IMG/VR virus record: IMGVR_UViG_3300017782_000201
Coordinates: 1 to 25,050 of that record
Reading direction: 5' to 3' (one strand)
Source: a virus
Length of the DNA stretch: 25,050 nucleotides
Each line of letters opens with the position of its first letter. Position 1 is the stretch's first letter. Positions 892 through 3,754 of the stretch are shown here, one piece after another. Position numbers and translations under genes: made by a program. A model generated the notes under the pieces. It did not search any database, was not told the origin of the DNA, and worked only from the letters and a program-made list of their open reading frames with translations.

Positions 892-1040
892 GGTGTTGCA
901 CCTCTTTGTGTTTGTTTAGTTAATCTAAACATATTACCCAAAAGCTGCACCAGTTTACAATGCTTTATATTCATACTTAAAATGAAAGTTTATGTCTTTT
1001 TGTTATGTCTTCTTCCCTCCTTTTATACACTAATGATTTC

Positions 1041-1084
1041 CTATTGTTTGACTATTGGTTATCCAGTGTTGGACTATTGGGTAC
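1041..1084 (+). repeat. Four degenerate 11-bp tandem repeats (CTATTG family)
   Basis: The stretch divides into CTATTGTTTGA, CTATTGGTTAT, CCAGTGTTGGA and CTATTGGGTAC. Units 1, 2 and 4 share CTATTG at exact 11-bp steps (1041, 1052, 1074), and unit 3 keeps the phase in diverged form. The 9-mer GACTATTGG occurs at 1050 and 1072. A DnaA-like TTATCCAGT overlaps units 2 and 3. The phase of about one helical turn suggests binding sites for a protein stacking on one face of the DNA, as in plasmid iterons or an operator. Confidence 0.6.
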
Positions 1085-1131
1085 TACATAGGCACTCACA
1101 TGTCAACCATTAGTTCTACAAATGTCTGCCC

Positions 1132-1217
1132 CATGTATAACCTGTGGATAACTTGACACCATTTGGTCTGACCAATGTATAACCAATGTATAACTTATGT
1201 ATAACCTGTGGATAACT
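1132..1217 (-). repeat. Phased DnaA-box array (two perfect, four related boxes)
   Basis: Two perfect TGTGGATAA (reverse of TTATCCACA) lie at 1143-1151 and 1207-1215. Related boxes of the form NATGTATAA lie at 1132, 1174, 1185 and 1196; the one at 1196 matches 8 of 9 positions of TGTGNATAA. The boxes at 1174, 1185, 1196 and 1207 are exactly 11 bp apart, as are those at 1132 and 1143. Two exact 22-bp copies (1133-1154 and 1197-1218) are part of the array. Each box is followed by C and a pyrimidine, giving an 11-bp unit. This is what a DnaA-dependent origin looks like; a repressor operator is the alternative. Confidence 0.75.
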
Positions 1218-1292
1218 TATGCCCCCGAGGGGGACTGGCGGCTATAGATTACTTGTAGTACCCACCCGTATACAAAAAAAAGACAAATGGGA

Positions 1293-1466
1293 ACTTAGGT
1301 AGTTATTTTACATACAATAATAACAATAATGGTGTATTTAGTAAGACAAAGCCAAGGGATACTTAAGTCTTTGAATTACTTAGGAATTACTTTGTAGATT
1401 GTTTATAGGTATTTATACAATTTACTACATAAAAAATTACTTAGGTTTAACTAAAGAATACTTAGG
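1293..1466 (+). repeat. Cluster of ACTTAGG motifs
   Basis: ACTTAGG occurs at 1293, 1378, 1439 and 1460, with the variant ACTTAAG at 1361 and again near 1675. The last two of the four are TACTTAGG. The same 8-mer forms the left arm of the hairpin at 2467-2486 before the terL gene. A seven-base word this dense within 180 bases is unlikely by chance. It may mark binding sites for a phage protein, for example a terminase or a late regulator; no function can be assigned. Confidence 0.45.
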
Positions 1467-1537
1467 GGTGTCTTTAGTATAAGACAGTCCCTAGAGTAAC
1501 TAAATGTAACTTTTTTGTAAAATAGTTAAAATAGTTC

Positions 1538-1566
1538 TTGACATTTAAGAAAAAGTATGCTACACT
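1538..1566 (+). promoter_or_regulatory. Sigma70-like promoter for the terminase genes
   Basis: TTGACA at 1538-1543, a 17-base spacer, and TACACT at 1561-1566, with TG one base before the -10 (extended -10). An AT-rich run with repeated AAAATAGTT lies just upstream and could act as an UP element. It shares 23 of 29 positions with the promoter at 6786-6814. Transcription would start near 1573, leaving a leader of about 115 bases before the first late gene. Confidence 0.65.
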
Positions 1567-1688
1567 AAATAAGTAATCTAAGGAACACCAAGATAAAGAT
1601 TTCTGAATAAACAAAAAACATATTCTTAATGTGAAATCTACAGGGTAGCCCCTAGGCAATTTACACAAGGCAAACTTAAGTTATACTT

Positions 1689-2090
1689 ATGACTACTGAT
1701 GAAGCTCCAAAGAGGAAGCGTGGGCGGCCTAAAAAGACTGAAATGGTGTCTCGAAAGAGAGGTGCTACTGGTTTATCCAGAGGTAGGCCCAAAGGTGATG
1801 CCGCGATTATCAATGAATATAAAGGGAGGATGCTGTCTTCCCCTAAGTCTAAGCTAGTATTAGAGTCTATATTCAATGCAGCACTTAATGATGAACATAA
1901 ACATCAAGCAGCAGCTTGGAAGCTAGTAGTTGATAGGATAATGCCCCTAAGTTACTTTGAGAAAGATAAGGTAGCAGGGGGTAAAAGTGCTATCAATATC
2001 TCCATTACTGGTGTAGGTGGAGAACAAACCACAATATCTTCAGGTTCCACAACAGATGATATAGACGGTGAAGCACAGTATATAGAATAA
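1689..2090 (+). CDS. terS: Putative small terminase subunit, AT-hook protein
   Basis: A 133-residue protein at the head of the packaging genes. Its basic N-terminus carries two AT-hook cores, RGRPKK at residues 11-16 and RGRPKG at 31-36, which bind the minor groove of AT-rich DNA. The middle (residues 70-95, with HQAAAWKLVVDRIMP) looks helical, and the tail is Ser/Thr/Asp-rich and acidic. Small terminases recognise phage DNA and hand it to the large subunit; position upstream of the peptidase and large terminase supports this role, while sequence alone shows only a DNA-binding protein. No Shine-Dalgarno sequence is visible before the ATG (preceded by AAGTTATACTT), so translation may be weak. 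The next in-frame Met (residue 19) would remove one AT-hook, so the first is preferred. Confidence 0.6.
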   Translation: MTTDEAPKRKRGRPKKTEMVSRKRGATGLSRGRPKGDAAIINEYKGRMLSSPKSKLVLESIFNAALNDEHKHQAAAWKLVVDRIMPLSYFEKDKVAGGKSAINISITGVGGEQTTISSGSTTDDIDGEAQYIE

Positions 2091-2500: not shown

Positions 2501-3754
2501 ATGGCTGATCTAAACGTAGAACTGCTACCTTGGCAACAAGAAGTCTTTGGAGACTACTCAAGATTTAAGGTTATAGCAGCAGGCAGACGTACAGGTAAAT
2601 CTAGGCTAGCCGCTTGGCTTTTGATAATAAATGGTCTTAGTGAAACTAAAGGACAGGTGTTCTATGTAGCACCAACACAAGGACAAGCTAGGGACATTAT
2701 GTGGTCTTTGTTGTTGGAACTGGGGCATACTGTAATAGCTAGTTCCCACGTAAACAACCTACAAATAAAACTAATAAATGGGACTACGATAGCTTTAAAG
2801 GGTTCAGACAGGCCAGAAACCATGAGGGGTGTGTCTTTAAAGTTCCTTGTCATGGATGAATATGCAGATATGAAGCCAGAGGTTTGGGAACAGATATTAA
2901 GACCTGCCTTGGCTGACCAGAAAGGAAGTGCATTATTCATTGGAACACCAATGGGACGTAACCACTTCTATGAATTGTATAATTATTCAAAGTTATCTGA
3001 AGATGTAGATTTTAAAGGGTGGCACTTTACCAGTTATGATAACCCTTTACTTGATCCAAAGGAAATCAAGTCAGCAGAAAAATCAATGTCTAGGTACTCT
3101 TTTAGGCAAGAGTTTTTAGCTTCCTTTGAGGCACAAGGTTCAGAACTGTTTAAGGAAGAAGATGTTACTTTCTTAGATGAAGAACCAGATGAAGGTGATT
3201 TCTATGTAGCTTGTGATTTAGCAGGTTTTATTGACGTTAACAAAGTAAAAACAAAAACAAGACACTTAGATGAAACAGCCATAGCTATAGTTAAAGTTAG
3301 TCAAGAAGGGTGGTGGGTTGCAAACATAGCTCACGGAAGATGGGGTGTAGAAGAAACAGCAAGAAAAATCTTTGAGGTTGTAAGAGAATACCGCCCTATA
3401 TCCGTAGGAATAGAAAAGGGCGCACTAAAGAATGCAGTCCTTCCTTATATTAGTGACTTAATGAAGAAAAGTCAAGTATTCTTTAGGATTGAAGAACTAA
3501 CACATGGTAACAAAAAGAAAACAGACAGGATTGTCTGGGCCTTACAGGGTCGTTTTGAACATGGGAATTTAAAATTAAATAAAGGCTCTTGGAATACACA
3601 GTTTTTAGACCAACTGTTTCAGTTTCCAAACCCTTTGGTACATGACGATTTAATTGATGCTTTAGCCTACATAGATCAATTAGCGGATACAGCTTACGAT
3701 ATTGACTTAGACACTGAAGATTATCAGTTTACTGACGTTTACGCAGGGTATTAA
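2501..3754 (+). CDS. terL: Terminase large subunit
   Basis: A 417-residue packaging motor with both expected domains. ATPase: Walker A AAGRRTGKS at residues 26-34, Walker B LKFLVMDE at 113-120 with catalytic Glu120, and the coupling motif FIGTP at 146-150. RNase H-like nuclease: Asp239 in ACDLA, Glu305 in GIEKG, and the HDDLIDA motif at 381-387 with Asp382/Asp383 and Asp386 as metal ligands. It pumps DNA through the portal into the prohead and cuts the concatemer. Length is normal for a compact terminase. The next gene begins one base after its stop, so terL and portal are translated together. No Shine-Dalgarno precedes the ATG; instead the hairpin at 2467-2492 ends eight bases upstream. Confidence 0.95.
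   Translation: MADLNVELLPWQQEVFGDYSRFKVIAAGRRTGKSRLAAWLLIINGLSETKGQVFYVAPTQGQARDIMWSLLLELGHTVIASSHVNNLQIKLINGTTIALKGSDRPETMRGVSLKFLVMDEYADMKPEVWEQILRPALADQKGSALFIGTPMGRNHFYELYNYSKLSEDVDFKGWHFTSYDNPLLDPKEIKSAEKSMSRYSFRQEFLASFEAQGSELFKEEDVTFLDEEPDEGDFYVACDLAGFIDVNKVKTKTRHLDETAIAIVKVSQEGWWVANIAHGRWGVEETARKIFEVVREYRPISVGIEKGALKNAVLPYISDLMKKSQVFFRIEELTHGNKKKTDRIVWALQGRFEHGNLKLNKGSWNTQFLDQLFQFPNPLVHDDLIDALAYIDQLADTAYDIDLDTEDYQFTDVYAGY

Follow-up and report, generated by a model that had tools for sequence, protein, structure and literature searches.

A helically phased array of DnaA-like boxes in an exchangeable segment of a podovirus-like phage control region

The DNA analyzed here (the window, 25,050 nucleotides in full) is a 25-kb linear IMG/VR virus fragment from a marine phage that is podovirus-like by gene content (ORF list and PHROGs); its close relatives are exclusively metagenome contigs. 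From the left, small leftward genes that include an ocr-like one are followed by a 797-bp gap and then by a rightward block encoding a basic protein resembling a terminase small subunit (TerS), endolysin, terminase large subunit (TerL), portal, capsid, and tail. Leftward nucleotide-metabolism genes with ribonucleotide reductase occupy the right end of the window. Features of the gap and its surroundings are collected in Table 1.

Table 1. Features in and around the control region of the window
Feature	Position	Strand	Basis
Intergenic control region separating leftward early genes (ocr-like and small) from rightward TerS-like/endolysin/TerL genes	892..1688		ORF list, PHROGs
Left frame repeat, diverged copy GTACTACATAGGCACTCAC (family consensus GTAYCCNCTNGYATACTCAC)	1081..1099	+	By-eye comparison with family; automatic scan missed the window copy
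Weak DnaA-like box CATGTATAA	1132..1140	+	Relatives have CATGTATAA or perfect boxes in this register
Perfect DnaA box TGTGGATAA (= TTATCCACA on the - strand)	1143..1151	+	Box scan
Perfect dyad TTGGTC-T-GACCAA, in the 31-bp gap separating the box groups	1163..1175		Read from sequence
Weak DnaA-like box AATGTATAA	1174..1182	+	Sequence, relatives
Weak DnaA-like box AATGTATAA	1185..1193	+	Sequence, relatives
DnaA-like box TATGTATAA, one mismatch from TTATNCACA	1196..1204	+	Box scan, relatives
Perfect DnaA box TGTGGATAA	1207..1215	+	Box scan
CCCCCGAGGGGG, window form of the conserved G-run after the array	1222..1233		Relatives
Right frame repeat GTACCCACCCGTATACAAAAAA	1258..1279	+	Relatives
Rightward sigma70-type promoter TTGACA-N17-TACACT, upstream of TerS-like gene	1538..1566	+	Conserved in relatives
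Conserved basic protein, called TerS-like for its position alone; no family match	1689..2090	+	ORF list, PHROGs
Terminase large subunit, query for relatives	2501..3754	+	PHROGs

Six same-strand boxes lie within 86 bp of the gap (1132–1215). The original prediction had been made from the letters of the window, and all of its box coordinates and 11-bp spacings were confirmed, as were the two identical 22-bp copies it had reported (ATGTATAACCTGTGGATAACTT, at 1133–1154 and 1197–1218). Start-to-start spacings are 11 bp (1132 to 1143), 31 bp, and then 11, 11, and 11 bp. As 31 bp is close to three helical turns, all six boxes lie on one face of the helix; with a 10.6-bp period, their start phases are 0.00, 0.04, 0.96, 0.00, 0.04, and 0.08. 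Shuffling, whether of the whole window (300 times) or of the gap (5,000 times), never gave more than two same-strand boxes per 86 bp, versus the six observed. Across the whole window, 31 DnaA-like 9-mers (at most one mismatch) are found and 32.6 are expected, so the total is not raised and the signal is the cluster. The four NATGTATAA boxes carry two mismatches from TTWTNCACA, except TATGTATAA with one, and hence are weak DnaA boxes when taken singly; they are counted in the array because relatives have perfect boxes in the same 11-bp register.

A TerL search returned hundreds of IMG/VR relatives, 80 of which (76%–99% identical) were taken, and a second recruitment that was independent of the boxes, a scan with the right repeat alone, added more. 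Counts refer to 72 nonredundant control regions, chosen by TerL or flanking motif and not by boxes. In the relatives the gap has a constant frame: the left repeat (GTAYCCNCTNGYATACTCAC) and the right repeat (GTACCCNCYNGTATACAAAAWAG) enclose a variable payload, with a G-run (e.g., GGGGGCGGGGGGG) between the payload and the right repeat. The two frame repeats are direct and weakly palindromic (about GTAYCC-N4-GYATAC), and flank the payload in the window and in all relatives. Further right, 150–280 bp beyond the right repeat, nearly all relatives of every payload class have a rightward TTGACA promoter. The record with the most similar TerL (99% identity) ends without upstream DNA. Loss of the boxes in close relatives was named in the original prediction as what would speak against it; the next four relatives (L003–L006, TerL 84%) all keep TGTGGATAA arrays, in the same place and orientation. 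Approximately one third of the wider clade is without the array and has another payload in its place.

A DnaA-box array is found in 48 of the 72 control regions. Perfect TGTGGATAA boxes occur 139 times on the plus strand and never on the minus strand (shuffle means, 0.3 and 0.2), with at least one perfect box in 48 regions, at least two in 41, and at least three in 25. Box-to-box distances peak at 11, 22, 31–33, 42–44, 53–55, and 64 bp, and their best period is 10.5 bp, which is unchanged if only distances above 26 bp are used; the periodicity power is 87 versus 1 expected, even for these longer distances alone. The helical phase, which was to be checked in related phages, is thus kept by the relatives. 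Among 99 imperfect in-register boxes, most changes are at box position 5 and some at positions 3 (often T/A) and 8, and positions 4, 6, and 7 are nearly invariant. The commonest imperfect boxes are TATGTATAA and CATGTATAA, the window's own weak types, indicating that in the window the NATGTATAA boxes belong to the array rather than being noise. On sequence grounds, the tolerated positions fit the DnaA site TTWTNCACA, except for the position-8 change of the NATGTATAA type, which should weaken DnaA binding. In seven contigs of 32–36 kb, boxes are nearly restricted to the array site.

The TTATCCACA sequence (R1/R4-type) belongs to the high-affinity class of boxes, bound at about 1 nM (PMC5835720). 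In bacteria, box spacing and the cooperative occupation of first strong and then weak sites build the orisome (PMC4451416), and in B. subtilis the helical phasing of the boxes is important (PMC6669920). It is highly probable, judging from the arrangement and composition of the boxes, that host DnaA binds the array as a phased assembly. High-affinity TTATCCACA boxes would nucleate host DnaA, weaker boxes in the same register would then be filled cooperatively, and the assembly would lie on one helix face, adjoining the G-run and the right repeat. Replication would start at the array with the aid of DnaA, and the phage T7-like primase-helicase and polymerase would take over; strand opening and initiation at the array are steps that we only infer. 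Several high-affinity boxes per genome might also make the phage a DnaA sink, many phage copies titrating DnaA and thereby blocking initiation on the host chromosome. Titration, however, requires no strict orientation, no helical phase across gaps, and no fixed frame, and we regard a sink as quite improbable.

The replication genes of the relatives bear on how the phage would start. Family A DNA polymerase (PolA) is found in all nine long relatives, and one relative viewed in detail has a T7-like primase-helicase, a gp2.5-like (SSB-like) protein, endonuclease I, and a Cas4-like exonuclease. A Bac_DnaA domain is detected in 0 of the 9 long relatives (control positive in 13 of 14), and a T7-type RNA polymerase in none of them (the same search is positive in Berlinvirus P483). 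T7 RNA polymerase primes the first origin of T7. A T7-like replisome without a T7-type RNA polymerase therefore needs another start route, and host DnaA would supply one. Our preferred reading, that the array is a host DnaA platform that most likely starts or helps to start phage replication, is one to which we give about even odds.

Recruitment of the host initiator, as originally predicted, is well supported by the relatives in its first part, the DnaA boxes and their helical phase. The origin role fares less well: no DnaA-trio (BUS) adjoins any box in the 72 regions, and two other features have other explanations. An AT-rich stretch at +200 to +350 (GC 0.24–0.29) is the same in regions without boxes and contains the TerS promoter, so that as a candidate DUE it is not specific to the array. 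GC skew was rejected as origin evidence, since its minimum lies at the switch in gene direction and its turn is not at the antipode of the array. A host assignment from MAG contigs was also set aside: the two matches, to Sphingobacteriales and Verrucomicrobiales bins, are contradictory and probably reflect binning noise.

What replaces the array is itself informative. In boxless regions the payload is either a GTGACY-N14-GGTCAC inverted repeat, single or in two copies, or some other sequence. The inverted repeat is 26 bp long and occurs in one or two copies ~70 bp apart in L015, L021, L026, L033, L036, and L062; further records with it in place of the array are L076, L108, L120, L121, and L139. 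GC-rich GTGTGCGCAGG-like repeats form the payload in L044 (209–400) and L078 (603–740). A search of the boxless regions for 11-bp repeats of another sequence gave no clear signal. When presence or absence of boxes is mapped on a tree of TerL from 55 records, 12 changes are required, at least nine of them on well-supported branches. Different payload classes, inverted repeat or other, are found with identical TerL sequences (L015, L019, and L021), and boxes are present or absent among near-identical ones (L039 and L045). These swaps, together with the boxless third of the clade, imply that the array is an optional module in a constant frame and is not essential for the clade. Such optionality argues against an indispensable part of an origin, and for adaptation to hosts or competitors or for frequent recombination at this place.

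The exchange of payloads resembles swapped regulatory specificities, and this could favor an operator or a set of iterons for a phage protein whose binding site resembles that of DnaA; a repressor operator was the alternative offered in the original prediction. However, once the number of genes tested is allowed for, none within 3 kb upstream tracks the array; the box consensus is identical to that of bacteria, and the tolerated positions are those of DnaA; and the same tandem 9-mer recurs in many unrelated viral contigs. No integrase domain was found in the nine or ten records searched (controls worked). An operator is thus disfavored, and we consider it improbable. A search for a gene tracking the inverted-repeat payload gave no convincing candidate.

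Two further motifs and the position of the array, between divergent gene blocks, raise the question of transcription. DnaA bound at the array might control the divergent early and late blocks, with replication starting elsewhere, as DnaA acts in this way at several bacterial promoters. Boxless regions often have a TTGACA motif just before the G-run, the slot that the last box occupies elsewhere, and the sigma54-like motif TGGCAY-N5-TTGC (TGGCAYGGGTATTGC), which we take to be a match to the sigma54 −24/−12 consensus, lies on the minus strand in 32 of the 48 box regions and in no boxless region. Against this, the conserved rightward promoter, at a distance of 150–280 bp, does not differ between regions with and without boxes, no canonical −10 accompanies the TTGACA motifs of the slot at 16–18 bp, and the window has no sigma54-like motif. 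Transcriptional control as the function of the array therefore seems unlikely. A sigma70 promoter in the slot of boxless regions was itself considered and rejected, TTGAC being present in 12 of 21 with no canonical −10 at 16–18 bp; the form TTGACA-N12-TATGCTA, with a spacing that does not suit sigma70, is seen there in, for example, L026, L036, L048, and L063. Minus-strand TGGCAYGGGTATTGCA, which fits the sigma54 −24/−12 consensus and occurs only in box regions, sometimes in two or three copies, lies between the left repeat and the array in relatives such as L102, L109, L112, L125, and L130.

Some box regions also carry a parS-like palindrome, TGTTCCACGTGGAACN (16 bp, at most one mismatch), which is found in seven of the 48, in none of the boxless regions, and in no shuffle; the window is without it. 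L003 and L006 have TGTTCCACGTGGAACC, identical to P. aeruginosa parS1 (sequence from PMC4368675). Candidate parS sites (TGTTCCACGTGGAACC or one-mismatch forms) lie within the arrays of L003 (3557–3573) and L006 (3680–3695), and more relatives have one in the array (L005, L020, L064–L066, L082, L107, L112, and L123). A box followed by a candidate parS within 30 bp is seen in 11 viral contigs. Since no ParB gene was found in the nine long relatives (domain search, working controls), any ParB at these sites would be the host's. A parS within some arrays, as near bacterial origins, would count in favor of the array as a DnaA platform for replication. A wider proposal, possible but in our view rather doubtful, is that in a widespread lytic phage lineage phased DnaA boxes, in some with a perfect parS, form a swappable landing pad that mimics the origin region of the host. 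The pad would recruit DnaA and ParB of the host, so that replication is started and positioned there, and lineages would trade it for sites of other host or phage factors within one frame.

Phased arrays extend well beyond this clade. At least 120 viral contigs, whose G+C ranges from 0.30 to 0.67, have three perfect boxes spaced exactly 11 bp apart. Isolated phages with such boxes, in noncoding end regions, include Berlinviruses P483 and A7 as well as T5-like phages; the rarity in lytic phages that had been supposed does not hold. The nearest-primase isolates CRP-361, CRP-804, HTVC115P, and HTVC134P were found to have no arrays. Long tandem arrays (at least five boxes) outside the clade are seen in L201, L220, L234, and others, several near terminase genes. 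Twenty large proteins neighboring the 11-bp arrays include seven clear TerL, one replication initiator, and one ribonucleotide reductase. This frequent proximity to TerL in unrelated contigs, the terminal location of the T5-like and Berlinvirus arrays, and the mention of DnaA boxes in the T5 injection stop signal (PMC13250531) would suit an end or entry element, at which bound DnaA anchors the genome or makes it pause while it enters the cell, while concatemers are processed, or while DNA is packaged, as has been proposed for T5. However, the array is not a break point in any of seven long contigs and the three near-complete ones end at different genes, so that no unique nonredundant end is evident; the seven 32–36-kb contigs, possibly incomplete, show no terminal repeats. 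We think it unlikely that the array serves in this way. Contigs often start ~120–165 bp before TerL; a physical genome end there was considered, but assembly breaking off at a variable gene is the likelier cause.

Known systems share parts of what is seen here. Bacterial oriC (B. subtilis incC, E. coli oriC) has the TTATCCACA 9-mer, tandem boxes 2 bp apart, helical phase, a mix of strong and weak boxes, and parS nearby, as in some relatives here; unlike oriC, the phage array is without a DnaA-trio (BUS), stands beside a T7-like replisome, and is a replaceable payload. The injection-stop/terminal-repeat region of T5-like phages (Tequintavirus) likewise has noncoding DnaA boxes in a lytic phage, with repeats and palindromes. 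In T5-like Gostya9, though, the boxes are pairs near one record end, whereas the array here is longer and sits in a fixed frame upstream of TerS, with no terminal repeat seen. Berlinviruses (T7-like) P483 and A7 have same-strand TGTGGATAA boxes, partly 11–14 bp apart, in noncoding DNA near terminase genes, but P483 has a T7-type RNA polymerase, and the Berlinvirus array is downstream of TerL. Plasmid and phage-plasmid origins such as P1 oriR are also extrachromosomal replicons with host DnaA boxes; P1 requires its own RepA and iterons, whereas no RepA-like initiator was recognized in the phages here. A single DnaA box is sufficient at the P1 origin, according to a title cited in PMC5043065. 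For the virulent Pseudomonas phage PseuGes_254, DnaA boxes are described in an origin predicted by Ori-Finder (PMC11512268); unlike here, this appears to be a prediction from a single genome without comparative or phasing evidence. Searches of the open-access literature that combined DnaA with podoviruses or parS with phages turned up nothing, although subscription-journal reports may exist.

As DnaA boxes are already known in T5-type phages, the window exemplifies a wider trait of lytic phages that has been little studied. What is new here is that the helical phase is conserved and that the payload is exchangeable within a fixed frame, together with the link to parS. How replication starts in virulent phages that have no initiator or RNA polymerase of their own is poorly known. 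The phased array offers a sequence signature by which phage origins may be found and tested, and the payload swaps between near-identical phages are natural experiments. If the array is indeed a host DnaA platform for replication, many phages would depend on the host initiator and on its cell-cycle state.
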